DNA from: Candidatus Dormiibacterota bacterium
GTDB lineage: Bacteria > Chloroflexota > Dormibacteria > Dormibacterales > Dormibacteraceae
NCBI GenBank assembly: GCA_955652675.1
Contig: CATPBP010000007.1
Span: forward strand, 83,354-115,853
Direction of reading: 5' to 3'
DNA: 32,500 bases
The position numbers and the translations under genes are program-made. Below the pieces are notes generated by a model. The model saw only the letters and a program-made list of their open reading frames with translations, had not been told where the DNA came from and searched no databases. Below, one piece after another: positions 3,091 to 32,500 of this stretch (position 1 is the stretch's first letter; each line of letters begins with the position of its first letter).

Positions 3091-4815
3091 ATGCCTGAAA
3101 GCACACCTCCGCCGATCGACCCCGAAGGCCTTTCCCGGAACGAGAAGGTCAAGGCCTCCAGCAACCATCTCCGCGGCACCATCGCCGAGGAGCTGGGTAG
3201 TGGCGCGTCCACGTTTACCGAGGACGCGACCCAGGTGCTGAAGTTCCACGGCGTCTACCAGCAAGACGACCGCGACCGCCGCAAGGAGGCCCGCGCCCGA
3301 GGGCTCGACAAGCACTACCAGATGATGATCCGCACAAGGATTCCGGGCGGGCTGGTCAGCCCGGAGGGGTATCTGGCGCACGACCAGATCTCCGGGGACT
3401 GGGCCGACGGAACCCTGCGGGTCACCACCCGCCAGGACTTCCAGCTCCACGGCGTGCTGAAGGGCGACCTGCGGGCGAGCATTCGAGCGATCAACGACGC
3501 GCTCATGACCACGCTGGGAGGCTGCGGGGATCAGGAGCGAAACATCATGTGCTGCCCGGCCCCCCTCCGCGATCGGTTTCACGCCGAGGTCTCCACCCTT
3601 CTCTCGGAGCTCGTCCCGGCGCTCACGCCAACCACCGGCGCCTACCACGAGATCTGGATCGATGGGGTCCTGCAGGGCGCAGAGCAACCTCAGGGAGAGG
3701 TCGAAGACCTCTACGGCGAGCTCTACCTGCCGCGCAAGTTCAAGACGGCCATTGCCCTGGAGGGCGACAACTGCGTCGATGTGTACTCCAACGACCTGGG
3801 GCTGGTGGTCCGCCAGGGGCCGGATGGCGGCCTGGCGGGAGTGGACCTGCTGGTGGGGGGCGGCCTGGGGCGGACGGCCAACAAGCCGGAGACCTTCCCC
3901 GCCGTGGCCAAGCCGCTGGCCTTCGTGAGCCCCGAGCAGGCAGTCGCCACCTGCCGCGCCGTGGTCGCCGTCCAGCGCGACTTCGGCGACCGGGTCAACC
4001 GCCGCCATGCTCGCTTCAAGTACCTGATCCACGACCGGGGCGTGGACTGGTTCCGGGAGCGCGTCCAGGAGCGGCTTCCATTCCGCCTCGGCCCCTCCCG
4101 ACCGCTCTCCTGGAAGCCCGTGGACGACCACCTGGGCTGGCACGAGCAGGGTGATGGGCTCCTCTACTACGGCCTCTACGTGGAGAACGGCCGGATCAAG
4201 GACGAGAACGGAATGAGGCTCAGGTCCGCGCTTCGTGAGCTGGTCAGCCGGCTCCACCTGACCGTTCGCCTGACCGCTCAGCAGAATGTCATCCTGACCG
4301 GCGTCGCGCCCGAGGACCGGTCTCTGGTCGACGAGGTGCTGCGCGCTCACGGGGTGCCGCTCTCGGAGGACCTCTCGAACACACTGCGGCACTCCATGGC
4401 CTGCCCCGCCTATCCCACCTGCGGCCTCGCCGTCGCCGAGGCCGAGAGGGCGCTGCCGGATCTGATCCGGCGTATCGAGGGCCTGGTCGGGGAGCTTGGC
4501 CTGGCTGCGGAGCGGATCAGCTTCCGTATGACCGGATGCCCGAACGGGTGCGCCCGACCCTACCTTGGCGACGTCGGCTTCGTGGGGACCACGCTGGGCA
4601 AGTACGACGTCTTCCTGGGCGGCGACTTCGACGGCACCCGGCTCAACCGGCTCTACGCGAAGAACGTCCCTCTGGGCGACATCCCCGGCCTGCTTCGTGA
4701 TCCGCTGCATGCCTTCGCGGCCGAGCGGGAGGCGGGCGAAGGCTTCGGCGACTGGAGCGCCCGGCTGGGGGTCGATCACCTCCGCGAGCGGTTCCTGGAG
4801 GCGGTCAGCGTATGA
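3091..4815 (+). CDS. cysI: Assimilatory sulfite reductase hemoprotein
   Basis: This 574-residue siroheme/4Fe-4S enzyme reduces sulfite to sulfide with six electrons. The C-terminal cluster ligands are clear: ACPAYPTCGLAVAEAER (C-x5-C) and TGCPNGCARPYLGD (C-x3-C), the latter bridging the 4Fe-4S cluster and siroheme. The N-terminal half has the substrate-anion-site arginines (LRVTTRQDFQLHGV). The block YLPRKFKTAIALEGDNCVDV is typical of the NADPH-type CysI subfamily. No cysJ flavoprotein is in the window, so the electron donor is unknown (ferredoxin or a remote CysJ). It heads an eight-ORF operon, and the siroheme synthase at the operon end supplies its prosthetic group. The stop overlaps cysH as ATGA. 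Confidence 0.93.
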   Translation: MPESTPPPIDPEGLSRNEKVKASSNHLRGTIAEELGSGASTFTEDATQVLKFHGVYQQDDRDRRKEARARGLDKHYQMMIRTRIPGGLVSPEGYLAHDQISGDWADGTLRVTTRQDFQLHGVLKGDLRASIRAINDALMTTLGGCGDQERNIMCCPAPLRDRFHAEVSTLLSELVPALTPTTGAYHEIWIDGVLQGAEQPQGEVEDLYGELYLPRKFKTAIALEGDNCVDVYSNDLGLVVRQGPDGGLAGVDLLVGGGLGRTANKPETFPAVAKPLAFVSPEQAVATCRAVVAVQRDFGDRVNRRHARFKYLIHDRGVDWFRERVQERLPFRLGPSRPLSWKPVDDHLGWHEQGDGLLYYGLYVENGRIKDENGMRLRSALRELVSRLHLTVRLTAQQNVILTGVAPEDRSLVDEVLRAHGVPLSEDLSNTLRHSMACPAYPTCGLAVAEAERALPDLIRRIEGLVGELGLAAERISFRMTGCPNGCARPYLGDVGFVGTTLGKYDVFLGGDFDGTRLNRLYAKNVPLGDIPGLLRDPLHAFAAEREAGEGFGDWSARLGVDHLRERFLEAVSV

Positions 4816-24638: not shown

Positions 24639-24668
24639 CTGCAGGCGCCCGCCGCGGGGCGCCTGCAG
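24639..24668. promoter_or_regulatory. Perfect 12-bp stem-loop upstream of tRNA-Gln
   Basis: CTGCAGGCGCCC and GGGCGCCTGCAG are exact inverted repeats around a 6-nt loop. No T tract follows on either strand. The stem covers the -35 position of the candidate tRNA promoter (TAGAAT at 24677-24682), so it may be an operator or a DNA cruciform rather than a terminator. Confidence 0.45.
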
Positions 24669-24703: not shown

Positions 24704-24779
24704 TGGGCGGTGGCCAAGTTGGTAAGGCGCCTGACTCTGGATCAGGAGATCGAGGGTTCAAATCCTTCCCGCCCAGCCA
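24704..24779 (+). tRNA. tRNA-Gln (anticodon CTG)
   Basis: A full cloverleaf can be folded by eye: acceptor TGGGCGG / CCGCCCA with discriminator G, D-arm GCC...GGC, anticodon stem CCTGA / TCAGG with loop CTCTGGA (anticodon CTG at 24737-24739), and T-arm GAGGG-TTCAAAT-CCTTC. The CCA end is encoded at 24777-24779. An integrase gene follows 135 bp downstream, so the 3' end of this tRNA is the probable attachment site of the island to its right. Confidence 0.93.
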
Positions 24780-24914: not shown

Positions 24915-25841
24915 GTGAGCAAAGTGTCGGTAGTCGAGTCCGCCCCCGACACGCCCCTTCGCGGGCTGGCGAGCGACTGGCTGGCGTCAGCCCGGGCGGG
25001 GGGCAAGAGCCCGAGGACGCTTGAGGCATATCGCTGGCCCCTCTACAAGGTGCTGATCCCGGCGTGCGAGGGCGCGGGCCTCGACCATCCGTCCAAGATC
25101 GACCAGCGCTTCCTCGACAGGCTCAACGCGTCCTTGCTGGACTCGCGACGGTCGCCGGCGTCGGTACGCTCCTATCTCCGCCAGATAAACGTCTTCCTTC
25201 GCTGGTGCGAGCGGGAGGGCGAGGGATCGCGAGCGACGGCTCAGCTCCCGAAGGTACCCAAGAAGCTTTTGGCAGTCCTGAGCCGCGACGAGATCAAGAC
25301 CCTGGAGGACGCGGCGGTCACTGAGCGCGACAAACTGGTCATCCGGACGCTGGCCGACACCGGGCTGCGGCTGGGGGAACTGCTGGGCCTGCGGGTCGGC
25401 GACATCGAGCAGGACGGCGCCGGCTGGACGCTCCGGGTGATGGGGAAGGGGAGCAGAGAGCGCCGGGTCAACATCGCCCCCGCCTTGGGTCGCCGCCTGA
25501 AGCGGTACGCCGACCGCGGACGGCCGCGGGGCGTGAACACCGACCGGCTCTTTTTGACCACTAGGCGCAGCCCGCGCACCGGCGTCTTCGGACCGCTGAA
25601 CAAGCGGACGACCGAGATCATGATGAAGGTCGTGGCCGACCGTGCCGGCGTCGATCCCAAGCGGGTCTGGCCCCATGTGCTCAGGCACAGTTACTGCACG
25701 CACCTGCTCCAGCGGAACGTCTCGCCTGCCAAGGTCATGCAGCTGCTCGGACACAGCTCGATGGAGATGGTCATGACCGTATACAACCAGTTGCGGCCGG
25801 CCGATTCGATGGACGACGTGCTGCGAGCGCTGTCCGACTGA
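24915..25841 (+). CDS. Tyrosine recombinase / integrase of the island
   Basis: This 308-residue protein has an N-terminal SAM-like core-binding domain (about 16-105) and a C-terminal catalytic domain with all active-site residues: Arg152 (TGLRLGEL), Lys178 (GKGSRERR), His254 and Arg257 (HVLRHSYCTHLL), His280 (LLGHSS) and nucleophile Tyr290 (TVYNQL). It looks like an XerC/D-sized phage or island integrase without an arm-binding extension of obvious size. The position just after tRNA-Gln and ahead of plasmid-type genes makes it the likely integrase of this element. It uses a GTG start. Confidence 0.92.
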   Translation: MSKVSVVESAPDTPLRGLASDWLASARAGGKSPRTLEAYRWPLYKVLIPACEGAGLDHPSKIDQRFLDRLNASLLDSRRSPASVRSYLRQINVFLRWCEREGEGSRATAQLPKVPKKLLAVLSRDEIKTLEDAAVTERDKLVIRTLADTGLRLGELLGLRVGDIEQDGAGWTLRVMGKGSRERRVNIAPALGRRLKRYADRGRPRGVNTDRLFLTTRRSPRTGVFGPLNKRTTEIMMKVVADRAGVDPKRVWPHVLRHSYCTHLLQRNVSPAKVMQLLGHSSMEMVMTVYNQLRPADSMDDVLRALSD

Positions 25842-26261
25842 CCTAAGGACATCTCCAGGCATTCCACAGGTAGCAATGGCTTACAGACCCTTGCACGTCG
25901 TTGTCCGCGAGCGCAGGGATCGTCGGAGCTCCGAAAGCGGTCGACAGCGCTACCTGGGCCACTAATCGATGCTGCCGCAGCGTCAATAGGCGACTACTGG
26001 CTCGTCAACCGCCCCTTTGTTCGTGCTCTGCTTGGTTCCGCCTCCGACTGCAATCCGCGTCGGAGAGGACTTACAGCATCCTAGGGAGCAGGCTACGGTG
26101 CACCGTAGCAACGGGAGAACCAACTCCACACACGAGTCTTTCCGCTGACCGCCAGAGTGCGTAGCAACCTGCTTCCTCCACAAACCGTTGATCCCAGCGA
26201 ATACTGCCGAGGGGTATCGTCACGCGCGGTACTTGTAGTAACATCTGTAGCGGATTCGGAC
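25842..26261. other. Non-coding stretch after the integrase
   Basis: In 420 bp I find no convincing gene on either strand. It contains a perfect 18-bp palindrome (26092-26109) and a 7-bp stem CTCCGAC/GTCGGAG around 26042-26065. Base composition is visibly less GC-rich than the flanking chromosome, and so is the decayed gene that follows. Confidence 0.4.
26092..26109. promoter_or_regulatory. Perfect 18-bp palindrome
   Basis: GCTACGGTGCACCGTAGC is perfectly self-complementary with no spacer, the form expected of a dimeric repressor operator. It lies 250 bp after the integrase and 150 bp before the decayed membrane gene. The binding protein is unknown. Confidence 0.45.
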
Positions 26262-26941
26262 GTGCCGAAGCCTGCTGATCTCTATGTAAGCGTGACGACC
26301 CTCTTTGCGGTCGTGCTCCCCGGAGCAATACTCGCCTATTTCGCTCAGTCACTGGCTCAACCATACTTCGACAACCACACCTTCCCAGCCCTTCACTGAG
26401 ATGTGCAATACTGACTCGCCTTTGCAGTGGCCTCATATTTGTGCGGGCAGGCCGTGTACGTGCTCGGTGCTCTAGTAATGGAGCCGATATATCTTGTGAT
26501 CATGGAGATATCGTCGCGCGCGCAACTGTTTAAAGTCTTTCCCATTGAGGAGTTGTTTGAGGAGGTCCGAGCGCGGCTGCAAGAGTATCCCGGGTTCACG
26601 GGAGGCCAACGCTCCACTTGGGCGCGAACCGTGCTCCGGCTCTACTTTCCCAACGCTGCAGTGGAGTCAGACCGTCTCGAGGCCGATGCAAAGTTCTTTC
26701 GCAGCTTTAGTGTGGTCGCTCTTCTCGTTGCCATCAAATTCTTTCTTCCGCCAACAGCCATAGCACCTGCCATAGGATCAATAATTCTGGCGCTTGTCTC
26801 AGTGGTGTTGTACGCTTCCCGCCGGCTGGCTGTCTCAAGGCTGACTACCGTGCCTTCGTTATTCTTTCGCATCACAATCGCTCGATGGAAGTGCAGCAAG
26901 CGCAGCAAACACAGCAGCAAGACATCGGCCCAGAACCCTAG
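26262..26941 (+). pseudogene. Decayed membrane protein gene (two in-frame stops and a frameshift)
   Basis: From GTG 26262 the frame reads MPKPADLYVSVTTLFAVVLPGAILAYF, a hydrophobic start. It meets TGA at 26397 and again at 26412, then continues in the same frame as LAFAVASYLCGQAVYVLGALVMEPIY with good protein character and a second hydrophobic pair near 26715-26815. Near 26842 the frame must shift by one base to continue ADYRAFVILSHHNRSMEVQQAQQ and end at TAG 26939. Restoring two codons and one base gives one membrane protein of about 225 residues of unknown function. Lower GC than its neighbours suggests foreign origin. A shorter product from GTG 26427 remains possible. Confidence 0.5.
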
Positions 26942-27128: not shown

Positions 27129-29204
27129 TCATTCGCGGGCGTCCGTTACCGCAGAACCCGCAAAACCCGCAGAACCGCTCCCCTCGCCAAGGTTTTGCGA
27201 GTTTTGCGGGTTTCGCGCATACGGATTGACGCGGAACCGCTGGCTCGGCCGTCCGCCGGTGGGACTGTGAGCAGACGGCACCGGAGCCAGATACTCGTGG
27301 GCCACGAGCAGGGCGAGAGCCGGGTCCAGGTCGGTGACCTTCGGAACGCGCGCGCTGCGCAACTGGTCGAACGCGGCCCGGCGGCTGAACTCGGTTAGAC
27401 CGCGATCGTGAATCCAGCGGAGGACGCGGCCGGCCTGCTCGACGACTGGGTCCGCCCCCACGAGTGCGAAGACCGCTCGAGCGTGGGCGATCGCGTAGTC
27501 GCCAATGCTGATCGCTGCCTCGACCGCGTCAGTTGGCACCTCATCGCCCCACTCTCCACGAACGTTCCTACCCAGATGGACCAGGGCTGCGACCCGGGCG
27601 ATGGCGCCCGTCAGCTTGCCAGCCCAGTCTGCCATCGACCGCAGGTCCCGTTCCTCAGCTAGGCGGGGTTCGAGGCGGGCGGCGTAGTCATTCAGCATCC
27701 GATGACTGGCTGGGGCGAAGCGGATCAGCACGCCCGCGGCGGCAGCCTCGATGCTGCGGGCCAGGATGCAGAGGTTGGCCGCGTAATCATCCGCGAGGTT
27801 ACGGGGCACCGGATCGGGGTCCGCCCGGCGGCTTCCCATCCGGCTCACAGGCAGCGCATAGAGGAACCGTGCGAGGATTCCCAGGGCTCGGAGCTCCGGC
27901 ACATCTGCCATCGCCCGCAGCACGTCAGGCTGAACGGCTAGCCCGATGGTGAGCGCTGGTCGCTTCACATACTCCGGCGGTCGGCCCTTCCGGTCGACGC
28001 GGAGGCGGTCACCAGCGTGGCCTTTCAGATAGACGTCCAGGTTGGCGCCCGTTCCGCGCGCCGTCGAATACCGGCCTGCCATCTGGCCGAAGACACCGCC
28101 CTCAGCGCTGAGCACCGCCAAACGGCCGTCTTGCTCTGCCAGCAGAGAGGCTAGCGCCTCCGGAGTGGCATCGTCCGCGAGGAGACGGTAGGCGGCGGGC
28201 ACGATCACGGCTTCGGCTTCTGCGGCCAGCTGCGTGGCGCGCTCGATAGCCATCTCTCGAGCGCTGGACGTCTTCGCCTTGGCCGCCTCGGCCTGCGCCG
28301 ATTCGACGGCGCGCTCCAACGCACGGCGCCGGGTGGCCGCCGCAGTGACGATTGGAGCCAATGCTCGGGAGCGGTCCTCTTCGAAATCCGAGAGGGGCGC
28401 AGTGGCGGCCTCGAACACGGCCGATTTGCGCTCTCCGGGTGGCAGCGCGACCAGCACGTAGAGGTTCAACGGTTCCTCCCACCCATGCCGCACCTCTACC
28501 CGGACGCGGCCTCCGGCACACGTGGCCAGACCTGCGAGCACGATCATCCCAGCCAGATCCGGTGGCGTTTGTGTCGCCTCGGCCAGTGCCGCTGCGTAGG
28601 CGGCGCACCAGCCGGGTAGAGCCTCGAGTGGGAACGCGGGCAGCGCAGCCGCGTCCAGCAGCGGCAGCGGCGCATTCCATAGGGCCTCTCGGGTGGCCGC
28701 AGCTCGCAGGATGTCGGCGCGATCGGACAGCGCCACCACGTCGACGCCGGGATCGTGAGCAGCTGCTGCCAGCTGCCGCGCTTCCTCAGCGATGCGGCGC
28801 TTGGTGGCCAGATCTCGGACCTCTCGGGCGTAGTGCTCAACGTTGGCGGCGGTCGGCACTGACTCCTGGAGCAGCGCCAGGTGTGCGCGTCCGCCGATCC
28901 GCTCCAGCATGCCATTCCGCTCGAGCTCGGCCGCCAACGTGACGTTGTCGATCGGCTGGCTCCGCTGGGCCAGGGCCAGCGCGGCCTGGTAGATCGTCGC
29001 GTTGTTCTCGCGAAAGAAGTCGCCTTCATCCACCAGATCCCGGGCTCGGGCGATGACATGGCGGTCGAGGAGGATGGAGCCAAGCACCGCGACCTCGGCC
29101 TCGAGGTTGTGGGGCGGCACGCCATTGAACGACAGCACATGGAAGGTGGCGGCAGGGTCGCCGGCGGTGCGGAGACTGCCGCCGACCGGGCGCTCACGAG
29201 TCAT
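27129..29204 (-). CDS. DnaB N-terminal domain - DUF3987 fusion, island replication ATPase
   Basis: This is a 691-residue protein. Residues about 29-140 are a DnaB N-terminal domain (PPHNLEAEVAVLGSILLD, RENN, PIDNVTLAAELE, LALLQESVPTAANVE), almost the same blocks as the chromosomal DnaB at 14206. Residues about 190-600 are DUF3987, a primase/helicase-type P-loop ATPase of mobile elements, with Walker A LPPGERKSAVF at 254-264 and the SAEGGVFGQMAGRYS segment near 365. The C-terminus (about 600-665) looks like a winged helix, then a low-complexity tail NPQNSQN...GSAGFAGSA. DUF3987 is more often paired with primase domains. Here the primase-contacting DnaB collar replaces them, which suggests recruitment of the host primase. 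It overlaps the upstream small gene by 11 bp. Confidence 0.8.
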   Translation of the reverse strand: MTRERPVGGSLRTAGDPAATFHVLSFNGVPPHNLEAEVAVLGSILLDRHVIARARDLVDEGDFFRENNATIYQAALALAQRSQPIDNVTLAAELERNGMLERIGGRAHLALLQESVPTAANVEHYAREVRDLATKRRIAEEARQLAAAAHDPGVDVVALSDRADILRAAATREALWNAPLPLLDAAALPAFPLEALPGWCAAYAAALAEATQTPPDLAGMIVLAGLATCAGGRVRVEVRHGWEEPLNLYVLVALPPGERKSAVFEAATAPLSDFEEDRSRALAPIVTAAATRRRALERAVESAQAEAAKAKTSSAREMAIERATQLAAEAEAVIVPAAYRLLADDATPEALASLLAEQDGRLAVLSAEGGVFGQMAGRYSTARGTGANLDVYLKGHAGDRLRVDRKGRPPEYVKRPALTIGLAVQPDVLRAMADVPELRALGILARFLYALPVSRMGSRRADPDPVPRNLADDYAANLCILARSIEAAAAGVLIRFAPASHRMLNDYAARLEPRLAEERDLRSMADWAGKLTGAIARVAALVHLGRNVRGEWGDEVPTDAVEAAISIGDYAIAHARAVFALVGADPVVEQAGRVLRWIHDRGLTEFSRRAAFDQLRSARVPKVTDLDPALALLVAHEYLAPVPSAHSPTGGRPSQRFRVNPYARNPQNSQNLGEGSGSAGFAGSAVTDARE
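27155..27212 (-). repeat. 22-bp coding hairpin at the 3' end of the DUF3987 gene
   Basis: Arms 27155-27176 and 27191-27212 are inverted repeats matching at 20 of 22 positions, around a 14-nt loop. They encode the NPQNSQN and GSAGFAGS parts of the tail. Each arm is itself built of AACCCGCAAA-like direct repeats. It is far stronger than a typical coding-region structure. Confidence 0.7.

Positions 29205-31381: not shown

Positions 31382-32500
<1,119 letters not shown>

Follow-up and report, generated by a model that had tools for sequence, protein, structure and literature searches.

An inverted array of short repeats at the end of a DUF3987 gene is a probable replication origin of an integrative element

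The DUF3987 gene of an integrative element ends in an inverted array of short repeats, and arrays of this kind are a real, recurrent DNA signal at the ends of DUF3987 genes. We interpret the array, with a probability of about 0.74, as the core of the element's replication origin, made of double-stranded iterons to which the DUF3987 protein would bind through its C-terminal winged helix and at which this helicase would start copying. The window, by which we mean the whole 32.5-kb stretch of DNA that was analysed, contains an integrative element that adjoins a tRNA-Gln gene and carries a tyrosine integrase gene, the DUF3987 gene and a Replic_Relax gene.

The array lies in frame within the final codons of the DUF3987 coding sequence (27129-29204, minus strand; 691 aa; PF13148, E 1.7e-97), and the protein tail that it encodes reads ...NPYARNPQNSQNLGEGSGSAGFAGSAVTDARE. 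Twenty of 22 positions pair between the arms at 27155-27176 and 27191-27212, which are separated by a G+C-rich loop of 14 nt (27177-27190). Using a repeat search, the arms were found to extend over 35 nt each (27142-27176 and 27191-27225) with 80% complementarity. Each arm holds three copies of a unit with a 9-nt period, CGC(A/G)(A/G)AAC, with opposite orientation in the two groups: CGCAGAACC (27150-27158), CGCAAAACC (27159-27167) and CGCAGAACC (27168-27176) make up one, while the other reads, on the minus strand, CGCAAAAC (27199-27192), CGCAAAAC (27208-27201) and CGCGAAAC (27217-27210). A preliminary description of this DNA had reported a 22-bp inverted repeat with 20 matches and a 14-nt loop, arms built of short direct repeats, and a protein tail encoded by the repeat; our analysis confirmed all three. 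The motif CGCARAACC occurs five times in the 32.5 kb, four times inside the array, compared with 0.55 occurrences expected, and five were reached in none of 100 shuffles. Folded as DNA, the repeat stretch gave -30.5 kcal/mol versus -19.3 ± 2.5 kcal/mol for shuffled sequences (z -4.5, 0/200).

A recombination site, also raised in the preliminary description, would be expected at the junction of element and chromosome. The array lies 2.4 kb from the tRNA-Gln (CTG) gene (24704-24779, plus strand), the likely integration site of the element, beside the integrase gene (24915-25841, plus strand; PF00589, E 8e-28). The Replic_Relax protein of the same element is encoded at 31382-32353 on the minus strand (PF13814, E 1e-17; phrog_9381). 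The other junction of the element lies beyond the contig, which stops at the window end, and no second copy of tRNA-Gln, sought as a mark of the far end, was present in the assembly. Other features of the region include an inverted repeat with perfect 12-bp arms, CTGCAGGCGCCC/GGGCGCCTGCAG, a short distance upstream of tRNA-Gln (24639-24668). A run of repeated GGCTCC (32440-32485) lies close to where the contig ends, upstream of Replic_Relax. Between the integrase and DUF3987 genes, the G+C content falls to ∼0.54-0.58 from ∼0.69 (26150-26900), and this stretch contains a 207-aa open reading frame of no known family.

An AlphaFold model of the DUF3987 protein, built from a 64-row alignment (mean pLDDT 83.7), shows a core spanning roughly residues 194-580 and a winged helix at residues 586-660 (27225-27449, minus strand), which we propose as the reader of the units. 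The DUF3987 domain (27465-28571, minus strand) adopts an MCM-like AAA+ fold in the model, and the core superimposed on MCM helicases with a Z of 18.3 and an rmsd of 3.5 over 272 residues. Foldseek with the same model gave a best E of 1.7e-3, with RuvB, E1 and the SaPI5 primase-helicase also listed weakly. The repeat-encoded tail is mostly below pLDDT 50 and is predicted to be disordered. Pfam lists only PF13148 and PF00772 for this protein; there was no match to an MCM family at E 1e-3, to the DnaB C-terminal ATPase domain, or to the DUF927 or Primase_Cterm/D5 families. The PF00772 match is a DnaB-type N-terminal domain fused ahead of DUF3987 (28812-29117, minus strand; E 7e-30), which may recruit a host primase. 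This fused domain is absent from the alignment of close relatives.

DUF3987 relatives were gathered by their protein, blind to repeats. Viral contigs and bacterial genomes each contributed 80 loci, to which named plasmid and phage loci and two loci of the same class were added. A search of genome and viral contigs with the single protein (P0001) returned no relative, and alignments were needed to find them. Inverted repeats with a span <160 were scored at +1 for a match and -2 for a mismatch from -120 to +230 of the stop codon, with a threshold of at least 14; by this scoring the window repeat reaches 16. One locus that stops at the match (L176) was left out, as were loci containing N or lacking 230 nt past the stop, hence the totals of 154, 162 and 163 given here. 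Scores of at least 14 were found at the DUF3987 ends of 29/78 viral and 44/76 genome loci, compared with 17/1708 and 63/1778 for other stretches from those loci; a score of 14 was reached in none of 3080 dinucleotide shuffles of the 350-nt DUF3987-end stretches of the 154 relatives. Ends of other long open reading frames gave 99/1377, versus 76/162 for DUF3987 ends. With one row per 60%-identity cluster, the proportions were 16/48 for DUF3987 ends and 18/403 for other gene ends, and among 63 further candidate reading frames gathered later, 22 reached the threshold. Units of the form SACARAA or CGCARAA averaged 3.55 per 350 nt at DUF3987 ends versus 0.29 elsewhere. The array is not a feature of every DUF3987 gene: 57/163 loci have fewer than three units, and the E. 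coli YfjI locus has no clear array. In the 106 loci with at least three units, it lies after the stop codon in 93, across it in 9 and inside the gene in 4. The pattern GACARAANNGACARAANNGACARAA alone was also tried as a detector and rejected as unspecific, since of the 88 stretches that it returned, 12 loci had DUF3987 by HMM and many of the others were collagen-like GQK repeats.

This design recurs among relatives from several bacterial phyla. The CARAA core is kept while the unit drifts (GACARAA, CGCARAA, CACARAA), and the arm orientation differs between high-GC and low-GC loci. Streptomyces elements have arms of 34-38 bp, based on TGACARAACC, ∼80-190 nt after the stop, plus extra direct copies; one circular 18-kb Streptomyces plasmid record contains a prim-pol gene, a DUF3987 gene and the array. 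The GC skew of this plasmid has no extreme at the array and was uninformative. The array as a whole is framed by an inverted TGACCTG/CAGGTCA pair, which is present without change in each of the 15 Streptomyces elements that were aligned (e.g. 2941-3130 of L012) and is perhaps the site of a second factor. Pseudonocardia tails of the AAKAAEAAE type are encoded by (GCCGCAGAA)n, with the inverted partner extending beyond the stop; a Tsukamurella protein ends in GQKGQKGQK, encoded by (GGACAGAAG)3; and planctomycete tails (SHNSRNS...NSGNIGN) come from units of the CCCACAATT type with weaker palindromes. In Clostridium carboxidivorans, the stop is followed by a 20/20 repeat. Many low-GC phage loci carry (TTTTGTCC)n, then an AT-rich stretch, then (GGACAAAA)n, and in low-GC loci the stretch between the inverted groups, whose arms are 80-100 nt apart, has a median AT content of 0.73 versus 0.62 for the locus.

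Quite different units were also seen. The Streptacidiphilus fuscans element has ∼10 copies of GTCAGGGA past the DUF3987 stop in a long palindromic arrangement, and five further loci (L331, L269, L349, L353 and L364) have strong inverted repeats past the stop built of units such as GTTGAACGG and TGACNNCAT. In L182 (∼3300-3420), a 35/35 inverted array crosses the stop of a distant DUF3987 gene whose tail is DTSDKTDKTDDTDNTD. The DUF3987 protein of the same-class genome G108 is identical to that of Candidatus Aeolococcus gillhamiae (480/480 residues), which makes the host of the window element a probable member of the Dormibacteria.

The preliminary description had suggested a recurring DNA or RNA signal of varying sequence, and had mentioned similar tri-residue tails in related proteins. 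Such tails were found in Pseudonocardia, Tsukamurella and planctomycetes (AAKAAEAAE, GQKGQKGQK and SHNSRNS), and the signal does recur with drifting units as DNA; a transcript end is not supported. The exact window pattern is confined to one of 101 genomes of the phylum, the window's own, and only the kind recurs (76/162 versus 99/1377, as above). What had been described as a terminal coding hairpin recurs as inverted arrays of varied units, which lie mostly after the stop codon. If the origin reading is true, the odd repetitive tails (NPQNSQN, GQKGQK, AAKAAE) are explained as DNA signals that happen to be in frame.

Evidence for the identity of the reader came from co-variation between the units and the protein. 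Units were classed by the base two positions before CARAA, and protein columns were scanned against the class; the classes were initially GA and other, and inspection of locus L129 led us to use base G and base C instead. Exclusion of loci without three same-base units left 96 of 166 aligned rows. In this discovery set, G occurred with Arg at residue 613 in 72/72 rows and C with neither Arg nor Lys in 24/24, an agreement of 96/96. Within the high-GC loci (69 rows, 18 clusters, 494 columns), 613 was the sole column with zero leave-one-cluster-out error, the next best being 0.124. In the scan of all loci, 613 was outside the 12 best columns, which we attribute to the assignment of unseen residues to the commoner class. 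In a tree built from the core and excluding the winged helix, each trait changed six times and independent pairs on supported branches agreed in 5/5 cases (p 0.0625); a larger tree gave four independent pairs on supported branches, 3.8 the same way and none opposite.

In 15 held-out loci scored by the redefined rule, G was found with R in seven and with Q, G or V in three, and C with Q or T in four and with a gap in one. Under a stricter rule requiring three units of one dinucleotide, which dropped L356 and L347, 11/13 agreed; the exceptions were L241 (GA nine times, with Val) and L317 (GG three times, with Gly). The former, a distant DUF3987 with nine GACARAA-type units, is a true exception to the rule. 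In the combined data, 79/81 G loci have Arg or Lys and two another residue, while 28/28 C loci have neither, a contrast for which a Fisher test ignores kinship. The window, with CGCARAA units, has Asp at this position (codon 27366-27368, minus strand), where GACARAA relatives have Arg or Lys. This codon precedes the array by ∼47 codons, which means that the co-variation cannot stem from the array overlapping the reading frame. The model places residue 613 in helix 2 of the winged helix, outside the usual recognition helix. Whole-domain co-divergence of winged helix and unit class gave no clear signal, a difference appearing only at 60-70% core identity (0.508 versus 0.568); the signal resides in a single position. 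The link between residue 613 and one base of the unit makes the DUF3987 protein the probable reader of the repeats; if it is, part of the binding specificity could be read from a single residue.

Two other explanations for a conserved inverted array deserve discussion, and we consider both unlikely. The stronger of them is that a DNA hairpin or cruciform is recognised as a structure on single-stranded DNA, as a priming or strand-transfer site, with the repeats serving to pair. Arms that are perfectly mirrored despite differing units argue for it (32/32 in L129 and in L122, 35/35 in L182, 26/26 in L331), as do the 15 Streptomyces arrays, in which 8 of 41 pairs change on both sides versus 2.5 in shuffled data (0/500). 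Over 22 clusters, mirror identity was 0.80 and the best displaced register gave 0.61, although choosing the register biases this comparison. However, several Streptomyces positions are unpaired in many rows, the arms of low-GC loci are 80-100 nt apart, and the link between residue and base requires no hairpin. In several Pseudonocardia loci (L142, L150 and L154) mirror and displaced identity are equal; units there match their neighbours as well as their mirror units, and therefore it is unit identity, not pairing, that is kept. A pure hairpin constraint thus gave a mixed result, with paired changes in Streptomyces and equal registers in Pseudonocardia. Unit identity and dyad order are kept across arrays, while a functional hairpin is unproven. 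Of the single-strand initiation site suggested in the preliminary description, initiation of replication survives as the best reading; a single-strand or hairpin signal is not needed, and double-stranded iterons fit better.

Slightly less probable still is that the iterons serve replication control or partition and are bound by another protein of the element, such as the prim-pol, an excisionase-like HTH protein or Replic_Relax. It is common for initiators and regulators to share iterons, and HTH or prim-pol genes adjoin the array in the Streptomyces plasmid. Against this, the array stays behind DUF3987 in elements with different neighbours, and the unit base tracks a DUF3987 residue in a scan that covered DUF3987.

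A transcript end or other RNA signal, although consistent with the gene-end position and with the RNA fold of the window repeat (z -2.4, 1/200 shuffles), is very improbable: a run of at least five T follows only 3/76 repeats and none is present in the window, such repeats are rare at other gene ends of the same loci, Rfam matches only tRNA, the CARAA core is conserved, and spacers reach 80-100 nt. The T-run count and the gene-end controls led us to reject an intrinsic terminator. A protein function of the repetitive tail has as little in its favour, for although the array is in frame with a 9-nt period in the window and some relatives, the tail is predicted to be disordered (pLDDT <50), tails vary between lineages, and the signal floats across the stop codon, lying after it in 93/106 loci with at least three units, which makes a mainly protein role unlikely and, as had been suspected, protein function alone insufficient.

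We thus return to the reading of the array as an origin of double-stranded iterons. In the proposed mechanism, the element would excise, and the DUF3987 winged helix would bind the two opposite groups of three 9-bp iterons as double-stranded DNA. MCM-like hexameric AAA+ rings would then assemble, probably one at each of the inverted groups; the DNA would melt at the origin; and a primase would start synthesis, so that the excised element is copied. We infer the binding by the DUF3987 protein from the position of the array and the co-variation, and double-ring loading, unwinding and replication by analogy. No AT-rich region lies between the iteron groups of the window, where the spacer is 14 nt and G+C rich, and consequently no opening site of this type is visible. 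An earlier prediction assigned DUF3987 a helicase role in mobile elements (PMC5862659), and deletion of the primase gene of a satellite family, a gene matched by DUF3987 and DUF5906 profiles, led to fewer circular copies (PMC10803314). Together with the layout of SaPI and SCCmec origins, these observations make the proposed mechanism the most likely one. In the open-licence literature we found no description of the origin of DUF3987/YfjI elements, under searches that included DUF3987 inverted repeats, YfjI iterons, TGACAAAA iterons, the Sfi21 origin and MCM winged-helix iterons.

A broader proposal is tentative, and we rate it somewhat below even odds. DUF3987 proteins might be widespread bacterial MCM-type initiator helicases whose own winged helix, fused to the ring, reads CARAA-type iterons by a residue-base code (Arg613 for G), with the mirrored groups seating two rings head to head. 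This would be a one-protein counterpart of ORC-directed MCM double-hexamer loading, the origin having slid into the initiator gene in some lineages. Genes of the DUF3987 (YfjI) family occur widely among phages, satellites and integrative elements. If the array is indeed an origin read by the DUF3987 protein, origins could be predicted from sequence beside many of these genes, and such elements would be compact systems in which to study origin recognition and opening by an MCM-like ring.

Among known systems, the origins of SaPIs likewise place short repeats next to the 3' end of the gene for a self-loading helicase, those of the window lying inside the gene end. SaPI origins have an AT-rich centre between the iteron groups. 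This centre is matched by the low-GC DUF3987 loci (median AT 0.73) but not by the window, whose array is inside the gene and whose spacer is short and G+C rich. The C-terminal domain of SaPI Rep binds the iterons directly behind its own gene, and two hexamers have been proposed (Ubeda et al. 2007, as cited in PMC7581432). Unlike the window protein, Rep is of the DUF927 or Primase_Cterm/D5 family, and that paper names no DUF3987. It also describes the isolated C-terminal domain of Cch2 as binding direct repeats behind its own gene, at the putative SCCmec origin. The position downstream of a helicase gene is shared with the window; in contrast, the SCCmec unit is AAGTG in three direct copies, and its inverted repeats are dispensable for binding (PMC7581432). 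A phage-satellite iteron origin containing inverted sub-repeats is that of the Vibrio satellites (PLE) with RepA (PMC7145576); this origin lies in a non-coding region, unlike that of the window, and has a RepA_N initiator lacking a helicase.

The window protein resembles eukaryotic and archaeal MCM in its predicted AAA+ core fold (Z 18.3) followed by a C-terminal winged helix, and several of the MCM structures among the matches are double hexamers. MCM is loaded by ORC/Cdc6, whereas the window protein, which matches no MCM Pfam family, would read its own site. The origins of SV40 large T and papillomavirus E1 consist of inverted sites and take two hexamers. These helicases, which belong to superfamily 3, recognise their own origin, as the DUF3987 protein would, but do so through an N-terminal DNA-binding domain (PMC7581432), unlike DUF3987, for which we propose a C-terminal reader. 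Judged from sequence and by analogy with these systems, the array of the window is most likely a variant of the known iteron-origin layout, with a candidate recognition code.
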